DNA of 46,131 nucleotides from Flavobacteriaceae bacterium (GTDB lineage Bacteria > Bacteroidota > Bacteroidia > Flavobacteriales > Flavobacteriaceae): the NCBI GenBank assembly GCA_019634365.1, contig JAHQVM010000064.1, positions 1 through 46,131 on the forward strand, written 5' to 3'. Below, in pieces: positions 39,587 to 46,131 of the stretch (within the stretch, counting starts at the first letter, position 1; every line of letters starts with the position of its first letter). A program made the position numbers and the translations under genes. Under the pieces are notes generated by a model. It was not told the DNA's origin and ran no database searches. It worked only from the letters and a program-made list of their open reading frames with translations.

Positions 39587-40843
39587 TTAAAGTCCTAATG
39601 CCCCCTTCACCCGATCCACATAATCCAATTTCTCCCAGGTAAACAATTCCACCGCCATGGTTTTGCTTTCACCATAGGGTGTTGTAAAGGTTTTATTTAC
39701 AACTTCATTAGTACGTCCCATATGTCCGTAAGCTGCGGTTTCCGAATACATCGGTTGGCGCAGTTTAAGGCGTTCTTCAATAGCAGCAGGTCGCATATCA
39801 AAGATTTCAGATACCTTTTGCGCAATTTCACCATCGGTTAAATCAACTTTGGAAGTACCATACGTATCGACAAAAATTCCCATGGGTTCTACCACACCAA
39901 TCGCATAACTTACCTGTACCAAAATTTCGTCACATACTCCGGCTGCTACCAAATTCTTGGCAATATGCCTCGTAGCATAGGCAGCAGATCGATCCACTTT
40001 ACTTGGATCCTTACCACTAAAGGCTCCACCACCGTGGGCTCCTTTTCCACCGTACGTATCCACAATGATCTTGCGTCCCGTTAATCCCGTGTCTCCATGA
40101 GGGCCTCCAATCACAAACTTTCCAGTAGGATTAATGTGGTAGGTAATATCTTCATTAAATAAAGCCTGAATCTCTGGCTTCGATTGTGCCTTTATTCTTG
40201 GGATAAGAATGTGGATAATGTCATTCTTTATTTTGGCCAGCATAGCTTCGTCATCACTATCAAATTCATCGTGCTGCGTAGACACCACTATGGAGTCGAT
40301 ACGAACTGGCTGATTGTCATCATTATATTCTATCGTTACCTGACTTTTAGAATCTGGTCGCAAATACCCAATCTCATTTCCGTTATGGCGCATAGCTGCC
40401 AATTCCTTTAAAATGCGATGTGAAAGATCCAATGCCAACGGCATATAATTGTCGGTTTCACGGGTAGCATATCCAAACATCATTCCTTGATCACCGGCAC
40501 CTTGTTCTTCCTTGGTTTCGCGATCCACCCCTCGGTTAATATCATCACTCTGCTCGTGAATGGCCGATAACACACCACAGCTATTACCATCAAATTGATA
40601 TTCACCTTTGGTGTAGCCGATACGGTTAATCACATCACGGGCTATTTTTTGCACGTCGAGGTACACCTTCGATTTTACCTCCCCGGCCAAAACCACCTGT
40701 CCAGTAGTTACCAGGGTTTCACAAGCTACTTTCGATTGGGGGTCGAAGGCCAAAAAATGGTCAATGAGAGCATCACTAATCTGATCTGCAACTTTATCTG
40801 GATGTCCTTCGGAAACACTTTCCGAGGTAAATAAATAAGCCAT
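39587..40843 (-). CDS. metK: S-adenosylmethionine synthetase
   Basis: A 418-residue protein with MetK landmarks: [32 protein letters not shown], the P-loop-like segment [19 protein letters not shown] and FMxTYG-like FVDTYGTS. It makes SAM from methionine and ATP and needs Mg and K ions. The gene is convergent with the STAND gene (2 bases between stops) and preceded by a structured leader (40855-40955) that suggests control by its own product. Confidence 0.96.
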
Positions 40844-40854
40844 ACAATGGTTTT

Positions 40855-40955
40855 AAAAAAATAACTTCAGTTAGGGGCTTAGATTTGACGAGAAAGGGTC
40901 GGGAAGTTAACACTGCCTTTAGCATTTTTTCTCGAGGTTGCAATCAGTCAAATCT
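40855..40955 (-). promoter_or_regulatory. Structured metK leader, candidate SAM-sensing RNA
   Basis: On the minus strand the leader holds two interleaved pairings that exclude each other: arm A AGATTTGAC (40955-40947) with A' GTCAAATCT (40889-40881), 9 bp; and arm B TAACTTC (40909-40903) with B' GAAGTTA (40868-40862), 7 bp, the latter followed at once by seven T (40861-40855) and the start codon 12 bases on. Just after arm A comes TGATTGCAACC (40946-40936), then, 12 bases later, GCTAAAGG (40923-40916), words that recall the SAM-II/SAM-V pseudoknot core (GAU..AACC and GCUAA..GG). Order and spacing do not match any SAM class I know exactly. I call it a candidate only. Confidence 0.4.
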
Positions 40956-41009
40956 GTCCTCAAATCGTGACGGCAAATGTACGCATTCTCTAAAAACTAC
41001 AAAAGGAAT

Positions 41010-41534
41010 TTACTGTTTCTGAAGCACAGCTCTTTGCACCGTGGTTATGGGATAGGAAATTACTTCGGTTTTAGTTTCATCCTCCGCAAAGGTTACGTTC
41101 TTTCGATCTTTCGGGGCGAAGACAATTTCGAAGACCATATGGTTCTTTTCAAAAGTGATGAAGGTTGTTAATAAATTACCACCTACTTCGAACAGGGCGT
41201 ACATTCTATTGTCAATTACTTTATCGTCTAGAATTATTCCGTTGTTTTCATCCACGACGTAGATTCCTTTTTCCAGGTCCTTTTCAATAAGGGTATACTT
41301 CCGTTCTTGGCGTTTATCACCTTCACCATACACCAAAATGTAGTTGTACCTACCCACAGTATCTGTTGCTGTGAGATGAAACTCCATGGGGATGTTTTGT
41401 TGTCCCCTTTCAGAATCAATCTGAAGGGTCCCTAAATAGACCCCGATATAATCGTTTGGGAATTGAGAGGTATCTTGGGCGAAGATTAGTGTACCGAACC
41501 ATAAAAACAAGAATACGAAACGAAAGGACATCAT
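41010..41534 (-). CDS. Secreted protein of unknown function
   Basis: A 174-residue protein with a signal peptide (MMSFRFVFLFLWFGTLIFAQ; the second Met at 41531 is an equally good start). The mature part is a small beta-rich domain with strands such as DYIGVYLGTLQI, YNYILVYGEGDKRQERKYTLI and GIYVVDENNGIILDDKV, likely lipocalin-like in shape, but I do not recognise a family. It is divergent from the YitT gene and lies upstream of the metK leader, reading towards metK. Confidence 0.7.
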   Translation of the reverse strand: MMSFRFVFLFLWFGTLIFAQDTSQFPNDYIGVYLGTLQIDSERGQQNIPMEFHLTATDTVGRYNYILVYGEGDKRQERKYTLIEKDLEKGIYVVDENNGIILDDKVIDNRMYALFEVGGNLLTTFITFEKNHMVFEIVFAPKDRKNVTFAEDETKTEVISYPITTVQRAVLQKQ

Positions 41535-41613
41535 AAAATTATATTGAAAGGACTAAAATTACTGTTTTAAAACGAAGATTAATAATACCTTTAGGAAGCG
41601 CAATCACCTGCCT

Positions 41614-42522
41614 ATGAAAAAATCCGTAAAGCTCTTTTTGGAAATCTTTCAAATCGCAATCGCTATTTTTCTGGCAAGCATTGGACTCAAGGCATTTCTT
41701 TTACCCAATGGATTCCTCGATGGTGGGGTTACTGGAGTTGCCATCCTCATTAGTAAACTAACTTCACTCGAAATTTCAATAGCCCTACCCTTGCTAAGTA
41801 TTCCCTTCTTCATTCTGGGTTGGTTTACGGTTTCGAGAAGAATTTTGATGAAGTCGGTCGTTTCCATTTTGGTTTTGGCTCTGATGATTCACTTTGAAAA
41901 TTTTAAACCCATTACAGAGGATAAACTCCTCATTTCCATCTTTGGTGGCCTATTTTTAGGGGCAGGGATTGGTTTAGCGATTAAAAATGGCTCTGTACTC
42001 GACGGATCTGAAATCCTAGGGATATTCGTGAACGATAAGACCGGAATTTCCATAGGAGTTATTATTCTCGGTTTCAATATCGTGCTGTTTGTTCTTACGG
42101 GAATCCTATTCTCGCTGGAAGTAGCAATGTACTCCGTATTGGCCTATCTCGTTACCGCCAAAACCATCGATCTGTTTCTGGAAGGGTTTGAAGACTATGT
42201 AGGTCTTATGATCATCACTTCCAAATCCAAAGAGATGCAGCAGGAGCTTATTGAAAAAGTAGGGCAGGGCATAACTGTATATCGCGGGGCCAAAGGCTTC
42301 GGGAGTCGAGGGAAAAAAGAAGGGATGGAAATCATACATATAGTGGTAAATCGAATCGATTCCAAAAAAACGTACCGTACCATCGATGCACTTGACGAGG
42401 ATGCCTTTATCATAGAGTTCGACGTAAATAAAGTAAAGGGTGGTGTATTGAAACAATATTTTTCCAAAAAGAACTCAAAGCGACTGGCACCTGCGGTTTA
42501 TGAACCCGATGACGAATCGTAA
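41614..42522 (+). CDS. YitT family membrane protein (DUF161 + DUF2179)
   Basis: A 302-residue protein with about five to six transmembrane helices in the first 200 residues (e.g. IAIAIFLASIGLKAFLLPNGF, GGVTGVAILISKL, GGLFLGAGIGLAIKNG, IIILGFNIVLFVLTG) and a cytoplasmic DUF2179 domain (GQGITVYRGAKGFGSRGKK..., DEDAFIIEFDVNKVKGG). The motif LDGGVTGVA and the C-terminal domain are standard for the YitT family, whose function is unknown. It precedes the ilv leader region, but that has its own promoter. Confidence 0.88.
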   Translation: MKKSVKLFLEIFQIAIAIFLASIGLKAFLLPNGFLDGGVTGVAILISKLTSLEISIALPLLSIPFFILGWFTVSRRILMKSVVSILVLALMIHFENFKPITEDKLLISIFGGLFLGAGIGLAIKNGSVLDGSEILGIFVNDKTGISIGVIILGFNIVLFVLTGILFSLEVAMYSVLAYLVTAKTIDLFLEGFEDYVGLMIITSKSKEMQQELIEKVGQGITVYRGAKGFGSRGKKEGMEIIHIVVNRIDSKKTYRTIDALDEDAFIIEFDVNKVKGGVLKQYFSKKNSKRLAPAVYEPDDES

Positions 42523-42543
42523 GCGAAAATTGAAGAATAAATT

Positions 42544-42574
42544 TTGATTTCTGAAAAGATTTTCAGAACCTTTG
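42544..42574 (+). promoter_or_regulatory. Promoter of the ilv leader
   Basis: TTG (42544-42546), 20 bases, AACCTTTG (42567-42574), one base from the -7 consensus. The predicted start site is close to 42580, which is the ATG of the first leader peptide, so that peptide could be translated from a leaderless or nearly leaderless RNA. Confidence 0.55.
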
Positions 42575-42579
42575 TGTAG

Positions 42580-42630
42580 ATGAGTACCCAAAATGTCATT
42601 ACTGTCATTATCAACATCGTCATTCCATGA
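42580..42630 (+). CDS. ilv leader peptide 1 (Ile/Val-rich, 16 residues)
   Basis: The frame encodes MSTQNVITVIINIVIP and stops at TGA 42628-42630: five Ile and three Val in 16 residues, eight of ten residues 6-15 excluding Thr and Asn. This is the hallmark of an attenuator peptide that measures charged tRNA-Ile and tRNA-Val. A perfect 6-bp hairpin (CGTCAT/ATGACG, 42618-42632) overlaps its last codons. A terminator follows at 42676-42709. The core bases GTCATTACTGTCATTA (42595-42610) recur exactly in leader 2, 142 bases on. Confidence 0.8.
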   Translation: MSTQNVITVIINIVIP

Positions 42631-42675
42631 CGGTGCGGGACGGTATTCATTTATTTTAGTTTAAATAGTAAATAG

Positions 42676-42709
42676 AAAAAGCCTTCCCATAAAACGGGAA
42701 GGCTTTTTT
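42676..42709 (+). terminator. ilv attenuator terminator 1
   Basis: AAAAAGCCTTCCC (42676-42688), loop ATAAAAC, GGGAAGGC plus T-run (42696-42709). A competing pairing of GGGACGGT (42637-42644) with GCCTTCCC (42681-42688), one mismatch and one G-T, would open the terminator when the ribosome stalls on the Ile/Val codons. Confidence 0.88.
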
Positions 42710-42721
42710 GTTGAAACCCAT

Positions 42722-42778
42722 ATGAAGCATATAATCGTCATTACTGTCATTAGTATCGTCTCGCCACCTCGGCGCTGA
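42722..42778 (+). CDS. ilv leader peptide 2 (Ile/Val-rich, 18 residues)
   Basis: The frame encodes MKHIIVITVISIVSPPRR and stops at TGA 42776-42778: five Ile and three Val within residues 4-13. It begins 13 bases after the T-run of terminator 1, so it is translated only if that terminator has been passed. The stop codon and the two Arg codons lie inside the 5' strand of the antiterminator (42772-42783), exactly where a ribosome that finishes the peptide would block it. It shares a 16-base core with leader 1. Confidence 0.82.
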   Translation: MKHIIVITVISIVSPPRR

Positions 42779-42797
42779 TGCAGACAGTCATAACTAT

Positions 42798-42835
42798 AAA
42801 AAAGACCTGTATCAGCGCGATGCAGGTCTTTTTTT
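42798..42835 (+). terminator. ilv attenuator terminator 2 with antiterminator
   Basis: GACCTGTATC (42804-42813), loop AGCGC, GATGCAGGTC (42819-42828), extended by flanking A/T pairs and a run of seven T to 42835. The 5' half plus loop (42807-42818, CTGTATCAGCGC) can instead pair with GCGCTGATGCAG (42772-42783) over 12 bp with one G-T, an antiterminator that forms when the ribosome is held at the upstream Ile/Val codons. Confidence 0.9.
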
Positions 42836-42914
42836 ATACTCAATAATTGCAAGTGAACATCGGAATGAAGGGTAATTCAAATAACTGTAAATCAATTAAA
42901 TAAACAAAATTCGA

Positions 42915-43019
42915 ATGAAATTAGACATCTCTCAAAACGTAAAAACGAAATCAGGCTACTACACAGATCACCTACTTTCGAGTGTTGGTAAATCACATCT
43001 TATTGAACCGCAGGACTAA
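42915..43019 (+). CDS. 34-residue ORF coupled to ilvD
   Basis: An open frame starting [16 protein letters not shown] and ending HLIEPQD, whose TAA overlaps the ilvD ATG (TAATG). It lies after both attenuators, so it is transcribed only with ilvDB. It is not rich in Ile/Val (two and two), so it is not a third leader peptide of the same kind. The coupling suggests that translating it delivers ribosomes to ilvD, or that it is a real micropeptide. Reality as a stable protein is uncertain. Confidence 0.45.
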
Positions 43020-44695
43020 TGAAGCTCAATACATACAGCAAAACAGTTACCCAAGATCCTACGCAACCTGCAGCACAAGCCATGCTGCATGCCATAGGGC
43101 TAACCCGCGAAGATTTTAATAAACCCTTTGTGGGCATAGCCAGTACGGGATACGAGGGGAACCCATGCAATATGCACCTAAACGATTTGGCTAAGCGGGC
43201 CAAAGAGGGAACCCAAAATCAGAATTTGGTAGGTCTCATTTTCAATACGATTGGTGTCAGCGACGGCATTTCCATGGGAACTCCGGGAATGCGTTACTCA
43301 CTGCCTTCCCGGGACATCATTGCCGATTCTATGGAAACCGTGGTACAGGCTATGAGTTATGACGGGCTCATCACTGTAGTAGGATGCGATAAAAATATGC
43401 CCGGTGCCTTGATGGCCATGATACGATTGAACCGGCCTTCCATCCTTGTATATGGCGGAACCATCGATTCAGGTTGCCATAATGGAAAGAAACTGGATGT
43501 GGTTTCTGCCTTCGAGGCTTGGGGAAGCAAAGTAGCGGGAACCATGACCGAAAACGAATATCAGCAAGTGGTAGAAAAAGCTTGTCCCGGTGCGGGTGCC
43601 TGCGGCGGAATGTACACGGCGAACACTATGGCTTCGGCCATCGAAGCATTGGGAATGGCGTTGCCCTACAATGCGTCCAATCCGGCATTGAGTGACCAAA
43701 AAAAGAATGAATCCGTAGCAGCTGGAGAGGCCATGCGGATTTTGTTGGAAAAGGACATCAAGCCAAGCGATATTATTACCCGAAAATCCCTTGAAAATGC
43801 TGTTCGGTTAGTGACGGTCTTGGGTGGATCTACTAATGCAGTGCTTCATTTCTTGGCCATTGCCAGGGCTGCTAATATTTCATTTTCTTTAAAAGACTTT
43901 CAACATATAAGTGATACCACACCTTTCTTGGCCGATTTAAAACCAAGCGGGAAGTATCTCATGGAAGATATTCATGCCTTGGGCGGTATACCCGCTGTAT
44001 TGAAATATCTTCTTAGAAAGGGACTTCTACATGGGGACTGTCTTACAGTAACTGGAAAAACCTTGGCAGAAAATGTAATCGATGCACCTAATCTTCCCGA
44101 AGGGCAAGATGTTATTCATCCCGTTGAAAAACCTATCAAACCTTCTGGACACCTGCAAATGTTGTTCGGAAATCTAGCCGAAGAAGGTTGTGTGGCCAAG
44201 ATAACAGGAAAAGAAGGACTGAAGTTTACCGGTAAGGCCAAAGTATTCAACAGTGAATTTGAAGTAAACCTTGGCATAGCCGAAGGGAACGTAGAAAAGG
44301 GAGATGTAGTTGTTATCCGCTACGAAGGTCCCAAAGGAGGTCCCGGAATGCCTGAAATGTTGAAGCCAACTGCCGCCATAATGGGTGCAGGATTGGGAAA
44401 GGAAGTCGCCTTGATTACCGATGGGCGCTTTTCGGGAGGTACCCACGGATTCGTGGTAGGTCATATTACTCCCGAAGCTCAAGAGGGTGGAACCCTAGCC
44501 TTGGTAGAAAACGGTGATGAAATTACTATCGATGCCGAGCAGAATACCATTCAGTTGCACGTCAGCGATGCCGAATTGGCAATTCGGAAAGAACAATGGG
44601 AAGCACCTCCCCTAAAATTCGAAAGAGGCGTGCTTTATAAATACGCAAAAACAGTTTCATCGGCCTCACAAGGTTGTGTTACCGATGAGTTTTAA
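43019..44695 (+). CDS. ilvD: Dihydroxy-acid dehydratase
   Basis: A 558-residue protein with the IlvD iron-sulfur ligands and active-site segments: [38 protein letters not shown] and [17 protein letters not shown] near the C-terminus. It dehydrates dihydroxyisovalerate and dihydroxymethylvalerate to the keto acids of Val and Ile. It is the first structural gene behind the tandem attenuator and is followed after 24 bases by ilvB. Start is the ATG in the TAATG overlap. Confidence 0.96.
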
Positions 44696-44719
44696 TCTTC
44701 ACATCTTAAAAAAGAAATT

Positions 44720-46131
44720 ATGGAATTACAAACCGTAACCCAAACCCAGACTTCAAAGACTACCAAAACCAGAATGGCAGGAAGTGAAGCGGTCGTTCAC
44801 TGTTTATTGGCCGAAGGTGTGGAGACCGTATATGGATATCCAGGAGGAGCCATTATGCCGGTGTACGATGAGTTTTACAAGTACCAAGATCGACTTAATC
44901 ATGTATTAACGCGCCATGAACAAGGTGCCACGCATGCTGCCCAGGGATATGCCCGTATTTCGGGTAAGGTTGGGGTAGCCATTGCAACCTCGGGTCCGGG
45001 AGCCACCAATCTTATTACAGGAATTGCAGATGCCATGATCGATTCCACACCTATGGTCTGCATTACAGGACAGGTTGGGGCACATTTATTGGGATCGGAT
45101 GCCTTTCAGGAAACCGATATCATTGGTATTTCAACACCGGTGACCAAGTGGAATTATCAGATTACAAAAGCTTCAGAAATTCCTGAAATTATGGCCAAGG
45201 CTTTTTACATTGCCCAAAGCGGACGACCCGGCCCTGTGTTGATCGATATTACCAAGAATGCACAGTTCGAAAGTTTCGACTTTGCCTATGAAAAATGTAC
45301 CGCTATTAGAAGTTATCATCCAGTCCCAAAATGCAACCCTGAAGCATTGAAAGAAGCTGCAGCGCTTATCAACAATGCCAAAAAACCATTAATCGTATGG
45401 GGTCAGGGCGTGATTTTGGGAAAGGCAGAAGAAGAACTAAAAACCATAATTGAAAAAGCGGGAATACCTGCGGCATGGACCATCTTGGGTGCTTCCGCGA
45501 TTCCAACTTCCCATCCAATGAATGTGGGTATGGTGGGCATGCATGGTAATTACGCACCCAATATACTAACGAACGAATGTGATGTATTAATCGCGATCGG
45601 AATGCGCTTCGACGATCGTGTAACGGGCAATTTGAATACCTACGCCAAACAGGCCAAGATCATTCATTTTGAAATCGATCCGGCCGAAATAAATAAGAAC
45701 GTTGCAGTCGATGTAGCTGTTTTAGGCGACGCCAAGTCAACCCTTTCAAAGCTTATTCCATTACTGCAATCCAACGAACATCCATCTTGGAGGGACCGTT
45801 TTTCAGAATTAAAAGCCATTGAGCATGAAAAAGTCATTCAAAACGATCTGTTTCCAACAAAGGACGGCTTGACCATGGGTGAAGTGATGCTTGCTATTAA
45901 CAAGGAAAGTAAAGGCAAAGCTGCTATTGTGAGCGATGTGGGACAGCACCAAATGATCGCCTGTCGTTATGCCCAATTCAATGAAACGCGTAGTAATATT
46001 ACATCTGGCGGATTGGGGACCATGGGATTTGCACTCCCAGCGGCGATTGGAGCTAAAATGGCCGCTCCAGAACGGGAAGTAGTTGCTGTGATCGGGGATG
46101 GAGGTTACCAGATGACCATTCAGGAATTGGG
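44720..46131 (+). CDS. ilvB: Acetolactate synthase large subunit (3' truncated by window)
   Basis: The first 470 residues of a protein of about 570-580. A short Thr/Gln/Lys-rich leader (MELQTVTQTQTSKTTKT) precedes the fold, then GVETVYGYPGGAIMPVYDE, RHEQGATHAAQGYAR (catalytic Glu of the ThDP fold), SGPGATNLITGIADA, the QVG and AFQETDI segments, GMRFDDRVTGN, SDVGQHQM and the ThDP-binding GDGGYQM at the edge. It condenses pyruvate with pyruvate or 2-ketobutyrate, the first common step for Val, Leu and Ile. Regulatory subunit ilvN would be expected just outside the window. Confidence 0.96.
   Translation, partial: MELQTVTQTQTSKTTKTRMAGSEAVVHCLLAEGVETVYGYPGGAIMPVYDEFYKYQDRLNHVLTRHEQGATHAAQGYARISGKVGVAIATSGPGATNLITGIADAMIDSTPMVCITGQVGAHLLGSDAFQETDIIGISTPVTKWNYQITKASEIPEIMAKAFYIAQSGRPGPVLIDITKNAQFESFDFAYEKCTAIRSYHPVPKCNPEALKEAAALINNAKKPLIVWGQGVILGKAEEELKTIIEKAGIPAAWTILGASAIPTSHPMNVGMVGMHGNYAPNILTNECDVLIAIGMRFDDRVTGNLNTYAKQAKIIHFEIDPAEINKNVAVDVAVLGDAKSTLSKLIPLLQSNEHPSWRDRFSELKAIEHEKVIQNDLFPTKDGLTMGEVMLAINKESKGKAAIVSDVGQHQMIACRYAQFNETRSNITSGGLGTMGFALPAAIGAKMAAPEREVVAVIGDGGYQMTIQEL

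Follow-up and report, generated by a model that had tools for sequence, protein, structure and literature searches.

Two putative leader-peptide attenuators in series, reading the same isoleucine/valine signal, upstream of ilvD in a Flavobacteriaceae genome

The window analyzed here, the whole stretch of 46,131 nucleotides, is contig C54 of a 3.29-Mb genome available in 144 contigs, and the closest named relatives of its IlvD protein are from the Flavobacteriaceae. Two genes at its end were assigned on the plus strand with NCBIfam models, both at scores above the cut-off: ilvD, the regulated gene, encoding dihydroxy-acid dehydratase (43019-44695; TIGR00110, 749 bits vs. a cut-off of 618), and ilvB, encoding the large subunit of acetolactate synthase and truncated by the contig end (44720-46129; TIGR00118, 583.5 bits vs. 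a cut-off of 538). The region upstream of ilvD carries two units, each comprising a short Ile/Val-rich leader ORF, an intrinsic terminator and a predicted antiterminator that excludes it; the antiterminator of the first unit is imperfect. At some distance, a SAM-II riboswitch (40909-40967, minus strand; 62 bits vs. a threshold of 44) is located directly upstream of metK.

The first unit (type A) is preceded by a predicted promoter of the Bacteroidota type on the plus strand (42542-42574), composed of TTTTG (42542-42546), a 20-nt spacer, and AACCTTTG (42567-42574; five of six matches to TAnnTTTG), with an RNA start predicted at about 42579. The -33 element and its spacing are those of the general Bacteroidota pattern, and sequence comparison shows an identical layout in two genomes of the same genus, L082 and L083. 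The leader ORF 1 (42580-42630, plus strand; MSTQNVITVIINIVIP) contains five Ile, three Val and no Leu codons, Ile and Val making up 8 of its 16 residues. A 9-bp hairpin found by folding, with the arms CATCGTCAT and ATGACGGTG, spans the end of the leader (42615-42635) and is a possible pause hairpin. It is followed by the antiterminator strand (42637-42644), which forms seven of eight pairs with 42681-42688 (duplex energy -11.5 kcal/mol) and includes GCGGGACGGTATTCATT, without variation across the three species in an alignment of the window, L082 and L083, and by intrinsic terminator 1 with the word GCCTTCC (42676-42709; -19.4 kcal/mol).

The second unit (type B) begins with leader ORF 2 (42722-42778, plus strand; MKHIIVITVISIVSPPRR), again with five Ile, three Val and no Leu codons (Ile/Val in 8 of 18 residues). 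Its antiterminator strand (42772-42783) pairs at all 12 positions with 42807-42818 (-23.4 kcal/mol) and contains the UGA stop codon of the leader (42776-42778), and intrinsic terminator 2, containing CCTGTATC, occupies 42798-42835 (-21.0 kcal/mol). The leader coordinates and codon counts of the original prediction, which was made from this sequence, were confirmed base by base, and the rest of the anatomy it described was borne out: a hairpin with a T-run for each unit, the lack of Leu codons in both leaders, a 12-bp antiterminator including the stop codon in unit 2, and a weaker, 8-base antiterminator in unit 1. Both leaders also share the 16-nt run GTCATTACTGTCATTA (42595-42610 and 42737-42752), which occurs in both leaders of L082, has one difference in leader 2 of L083, and is absent from L084, a third genome of the genus, as if the leaders had exchanged sequence within the genus.

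Both attenuator units precede matching biosynthetic genes, ilvD and ilvB in the window and ilvE followed by ilvD in L082, where ilvE still lies between the attenuators and ilvD (ilvE_I model, above cut-off). A 34-aa ORF directly before ilvD (42915-43018) was considered as a third leader and dropped: by-eye comparison places ilvE at this position in L082 and L083. This ORF, which ends at the ilvD start, is probably the remnant of an ilvE gene lost between the attenuators and ilvD. Another branched-chain transaminase is encoded on contig C130 of the same genome (L217; ilvE_II model, above cut-off).

Scans with generic models were also applied. A terminator scan reported hairpin 1 on the minus strand only and did not report hairpin 2, and terminator-like sites were not enriched in 40000-46131 (6 vs. 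6.4 in shuffled sequences); both stems run into their T-runs, which probably hides the two terminators from the scan rule. A sigma-70 promoter scan yielded 11 sites vs. 14.1 in shuffled sequences, none of them on the plus strand of the leader. No Rfam family exceeded its threshold in the leader region. The Thr_leader model (RF00506) scored 35.9 bits over unit 2 (42729-42836) and 34.6 bits over unit 1 (42587-42712), below its curated threshold of 55, and since the same model gave 27.6 bits on the wrong strand, part of this score is generic.

For the comparative analysis, 237 ilvD loci were surveyed, comprising 157 loci from genomes, predominantly of a single family, and 80 from named records; the 157 are the loci that were fetched, some further genomes with ilvD being left out, and L093 was excluded as its ilvD is cut by a contig edge. 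The set contains near-duplicate organisms with identical leader sequences (L003 and L131; L019 and L098), and the available upstream length ranges from 268 to 3000 nt, so that units separated from ilvD by an ilvE gene may escape detection. An attenuator unit was called where an ORF 8-40 codons long, with six or more Ile/Val/Leu codons in 10, had a hairpin and T-run within the next 80 nt. Types A and B were set by short terminator words, later widened, so that the first units of L084 and L007 count as A-like. In the last 700 nt before ilvD, the detector found at least one unit on the forward strand of 101 of the 237 loci and two units in 15, in comparison with at least one unit in seven loci and no doubles on the reverse strand and no units at all in block-shuffled sequences. 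Stricter cut-offs gave 90 forward, 0 reverse and 0 shuffled hits. The double unit is thus far above chance, and a chance ORF combined with a stray terminator is rejected on the basis of the wrong-strand and shuffled controls.

To analyze the placement of the control codons, we assumed that the ribosome covers 15 nt counted from its A-site codon and folded the RNA left exposed past it at the moment strand 3 is complete. In unit 1, seven of the eight antiterminator pairs form with any A-site codon up to Ile15, three at Pro16 (codon 16), and none at the stop codon. In unit 2, all 12 pairs form up to Ile12, 11 at Val13, eight at codon 14, five at codon 15, and none from codon 16 on. These pair counts mark the last control codon as the switching point in both units: a stalled ribosome would leave the antiterminator free, and a ribosome at the stop codon would mask it. 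Folding of the full-length RNA favored the terminators at every A-site position tried but one (in unit 2), and therefore the switch must be kinetic.

Within the genus of the window, both units were found in G007 (L082; IlvD identity of 96 percent), G008 (L083; 91 percent), and G001 (L084; 86 percent); thus both leaders, antiterminators and terminators are kept among genomes whose IlvD proteins differ by 4 to 14 percent. Compensatory base changes occur in both units among the window, L082 and L083. In unit 1, the pair 42618-42632 is C-G in the window, U-G in L082, and U-A in L083, and the change falls on the third base of an Ile codon, leaving the peptide unaltered; in unit 2, the C-G pair of the window at 42773-42817 is replaced by U-A in L083. 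Neither unit was found in three other genomes of the genus, G002, G003 and G004 (L085, L086 and L090), G005 and G006 being left out of this comparison, and the B terminator word occurs once each in three of the nine genus genomes. A GrrCATCGkA-like motif is located about 150 nt before ilvD or ilvE in L085, L086 and L090, and at about 42852 in the window, and is hence present even without attenuators; it precedes ilvD in 5 of the 157 genome loci vs. 0 of 406 background windows, too few for more than a possible second regulatory site.

Among the 157 genome loci, 40 have unit A alone, 14 have unit B alone, 16 have the A-B pair, and one has a near-miss A followed by B; the rest include one other double, seven other single units, and 78 loci with none. 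Over all 237 loci, the detector found no unit in 105, and these unit-free loci, together with the three unit-free genomes of the genus, indicate that the tandem is not essential. Doubles among the 80 named records belong to Tenacibaculum caenipelagi (L007), Gaetbulibacter (L008), Lutibacter (L030), Aquimarina (L012), an Ignavibacteriae MAG (L027), a Cyclobacteriaceae MAG (L032), Chryseobacterium (L054 and L058), and Myroides (L062). Seven of the doubles of other than A-B type were inspected by eye. Most of the extra units in L068, which has multiple ones, look false, and in L062 the first leader reported by the script is in the wrong frame, an Ile-rich leader being visible by eye. In all 20 tandem loci, the A or A-like unit comes first and the B unit second; the reverse order was not found in any of the 237 loci. 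The conservation of the A-B pair across relatives makes the doubling look selected rather than accidental.

A strict pattern of unit B, covering the antiterminator and both terminator arms and not tied to ilvD, was searched in 397 genomes of the family. It produced 11 matches, one per genome, and none in the reversed control. All 11 precede ilvE or ilvD, and unit A lies upstream in nine of them; five of the 11 genomes were already present in the 237-locus survey. The two exceptions are L261, with B alone, and L260, in which an Ile-rich ORF runs past the usual stop and no leader is called by the detector. The exact pattern is not matched by the window, G007 or G008.

Loss of the Ile/Val codons from relatives that keep the hairpins would speak against attenuation, and a search for hairpins without the leader condition, up to 1600 nt before ilvD in the 237 loci, found 66 of type A (63 with a leader) and 39 of type B (36 with a leader), or 99 of 105 with a leader. 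Of the six hairpins without a detected leader, none of which belongs to a tandem, the one in L062 is spurious and results from a masked stretch, and four (L125, L154, L169 and L179) show on visual inspection a leader with Ile/Val codons that falls short of the cut-off; only in L229, a single A unit, does the leader seem lost or degenerate. The stop codon is UGA in 33 of 40 B units and UGAURYRG occurs at or just past the stop in 32 of 40, hence the stop codon itself tends to belong to the switch. The expected co-variation across ilvD upstream regions was also recovered: in a permutation test that ignores relatedness, antiterminator arms pair better with their own partners than with swapped ones, both for type A (-11.70 vs. 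-9.48 kcal/mol, 83 units) and type B (-14.09 vs. -12.54 kcal/mol, 38 units), with none of 5000 permutations as good in either case. Compared with shuffled leader ends, a z-score below -2 was reached by 60 percent of the type A units (n = 85) and 74 percent of the type B units (n = 39), the remaining 40 and 26 percent missing this level when taken singly.

These data bear on the possibility that only one unit works and that the other is a duplication relic or a spare kept by chance. Relatives with A alone or B alone suggest that one unit is enough, and the antiterminator of unit 1 is weak; however, codons, antiterminator and terminator are retained in both units across the divergence of the genus, both units have compensatory changes, and the 20 tandems keep both, which makes this explanation unlikely. 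On a FastTree phylogeny of IlvD (135 rows), the A-B state has to change 12 or more times over 132 rows, and the tree does not distinguish gain from loss. At L205, two near-identical complete attenuator units form a direct repeat between -1176 and -931, a fresh-looking duplication that may show how tandems can arise. In both Chryseobacterium loci, double units with other terminators are found at about -1400 to -1090.

In Flavobacterium psychrophilum, the box of the primary sigma factor was described as TAnnTTTG at -12 to -5 (PMC9723704). We counted matches that end in TTG and agree at five or more of the six positions, in the 24 nt preceding each start codon; the background rate was 0.0062 per position. 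Such boxes precede 63 of 81 first A leaders, with 46 matches at gaps of 8-11 nt and multiple matches at some loci. For first B leaders the count is 16 of 20, with nine matches at a gap of 5 nt. Among units of other sequence types, the box was found before 16 of 31 first and one of five second leaders, and it precedes the ilvD start itself in 30 of 237 loci. Only two of 20 second B leaders (about three expected by chance) and none of four second A leaders have it, and just before leader 2 of the window no box was seen by eye, the best match being four of six at the T-run. Since the second B units have no recognizable promoter, polymerase would arrive at them by reading through terminator 1. The arrangement could alternatively be parallel, each unit being entered from its own start under different conditions. 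First-placed B units do carry a box, yet the numbers for second B units and the inspection of the window, both concerning boxes of the TAnnTTTG type, argue against separate starts and leave this arrangement very unlikely.

For most of the boxed first leaders, the start codon is predicted to be about 1 to 7 nt from the RNA 5' end (1 nt in the window), and by their sequence these leaders look nearly leaderless. In Bacteroides thetaiotaomicron, only about 3.7 percent of 5' UTRs were reported to be shorter than 10 nt (PMC7366714), and near-leaderless first leaders would therefore be unusual. In the Chryseobacterium doubles (L054 and L058), the first leader is predicted to be fully leaderless, its AUG being 4 nt past a TACATTTG box without mismatches. 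If real, a near-leaderless first leader would suggest how ribosomes are loaded in step with the polymerase in a group without reliance on Shine-Dalgarno sites.

The amino acid composition of the tandem leaders addresses what the two units sense. In the 20 tandems, first leaders have an Ile/(Ile+Val) ratio of 0.73 and second leaders one of 0.75 (paired Wilcoxon test, P = 0.21), with means of 6.1 Ile, 2.35 Val and 0.9 Leu codons per first leader and 6.15 Ile, 2.05 Val and 0.5 Leu codons per second leader. This equal balance speaks for two readings of one signal, one of the two outputs suggested in the original prediction; the other, separate sensing of Ile and Val, is not supported by the composition. 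A division of labor in which one unit reads Ile and the other Val or Leu would be permitted by the presence of two leaders, and a tandem in the Salmonella mgtCBR leader does read two signals (PMC3641672), but the identical Ile and Val counts in the window leaders, the matching ratios in the tandems, and the scarcity of Leu render it highly improbable.

Three copies of the GCCTTCC hairpin are present in the genome of the window, one of them in unit 1. The second (L250; contig C45, minus strand) follows a single Thr-rich leader, MKHNITNTTTTTTGTS, with a promoter-like box again near the AUG, and the gene after it begins, by eye, like aspartokinase; the genome thus seems to use single leader-peptide units too. 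The third lies past the end of another gene and lacks a visible leader. That hairpin 1 is the terminator of the upstream gene (41614-42522), with leader 1 a chance ORF and unit 2 the sole attenuator, would agree with this third copy and with the near-symmetrical shape of hairpin 1, terminator-like on the minus strand in the generic scan, but is extremely unlikely given that leader 1 is kept in L082, L083 and L084 despite DNA further upstream that differs by eye, that no doubles occur on the wrong strand or in shuffled sequences, and that a promoter-like box lies at a fixed gap before first leaders.

We consider it probable that the 5' leader of this ilv operon comprises two ribosome-mediated transcription attenuators in series that respond to the same Ile/Val signal, the reading of the original prediction that is best supported. 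It is based on the anatomy, conservation, co-variation, the lack of a recognizable second promoter, and the position of the control codons; transcription, stalling, termination and the steeper response of the tandem are what we infer for its operation, as follows. The signal for both units would be charged tRNA-Ile and tRNA-Val. Transcription would begin from a single promoter, about 1 nt ahead of leader 1, and the ribosome would load at the 5' end. When Ile and Val are plentiful, the ribosome would reach the stop codon of leader 1 and mask 42637-42644, and terminator 1 would halt RNA polymerase. A ribosome stalled at any of the eight Ile/Val codons would allow the antiterminator to pair first, and the polymerase would continue to unit 2, where a second decision of the same type would be made with its own leader and a stronger predicted antiterminator that holds the UGA stop codon of that leader. 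The ilvD-ilvB genes would be transcribed only if both stages pass the polymerase. Leak through the two stages should therefore multiply to a lower level, and starvation should elicit a steeper response.

Single attenuators of the leader-peptide kind have long been established, with one unit per operon in the usual depiction, and other groups have earlier surveyed attenuation comparatively. As in the enterobacterial ilv and thr leaders, a peptide rich in the end-product amino acids and mutually exclusive antiterminator and terminator precede a biosynthetic operon in the window, whereas the window differs in having two units in series, no Leu codons, and a first leader predicted to be near-leaderless. 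In F. psychrophilum, a member of the same family, leader-peptide attenuation before amino acid operons was proposed in 2021, with no tandem mentioned in the passages on it (PMC9723704). The Salmonella mgtCBR leader has tandem attenuators that respond to ATP and proline, with stem-loops unlike intrinsic terminators, and was regarded by its authors as a singular case in which tandem attenuators serve different signals (PMC3641672). It shares with the window two attenuators in one leader and two short ORFs, each of which controls read-through or, in the window, is predicted to do so, a single transcript being predicted for the window from its anatomy and the lack of a recognizable second promoter; in contrast to mgtCBR, both window units appear to read Ile/Val in the same balance and each has an intrinsic terminator. 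The leader ORF of trpL in Sinorhizobium meliloti is leaderless (PMC7298713) and begins at the RNA 5' end, close to the 1-nt distance predicted for leader 1, but it is a single unit, for trp, in another phylum. Two leader peptides are described for the translational attenuation of ermB (PMC8274638), and an engineered set of antisense attenuators was also reported (PMC3753616). Riboswitches arranged in tandem for a single ligand have been termed pseudo-cooperative and produce steeper curves (PMC9481103); they resemble the window in having two complete same-signal units in series, from which a steeper response is expected, and differ in the sensor, an aptamer rather than a translating ribosome. 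No same-signal tandem of leader-peptide attenuators was found in the open-licence PMC literature, among the matches listed, and none in Bacteroidota.

A more specific proposal, on which we are evenly divided, is that flavobacteria use a two-stage, same-signal switch with a leaderless first attenuator, an internally started second one, and a near on-off response to Ile and Val, and that such doubling has arisen more than once in the phylum. The part on repeated origin draws on the A-B pairs in Flavobacteriaceae, on the other types in Chryseobacterium, Myroides, Aquimarina, a Cyclobacteriaceae and an Ignavibacteriae genome, and on the repeat at L205. If true, the two-stage switch would be the leader-peptide counterpart of tandem riboswitches, with two ribosome decisions multiplied. 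A conserved double unit for the same signal raises the question of whether steepness, lower leak or timing is gained by asking the ribosome twice, and operons with A only, B only, A-B or no unit occur naturally in the family and could be compared directly.
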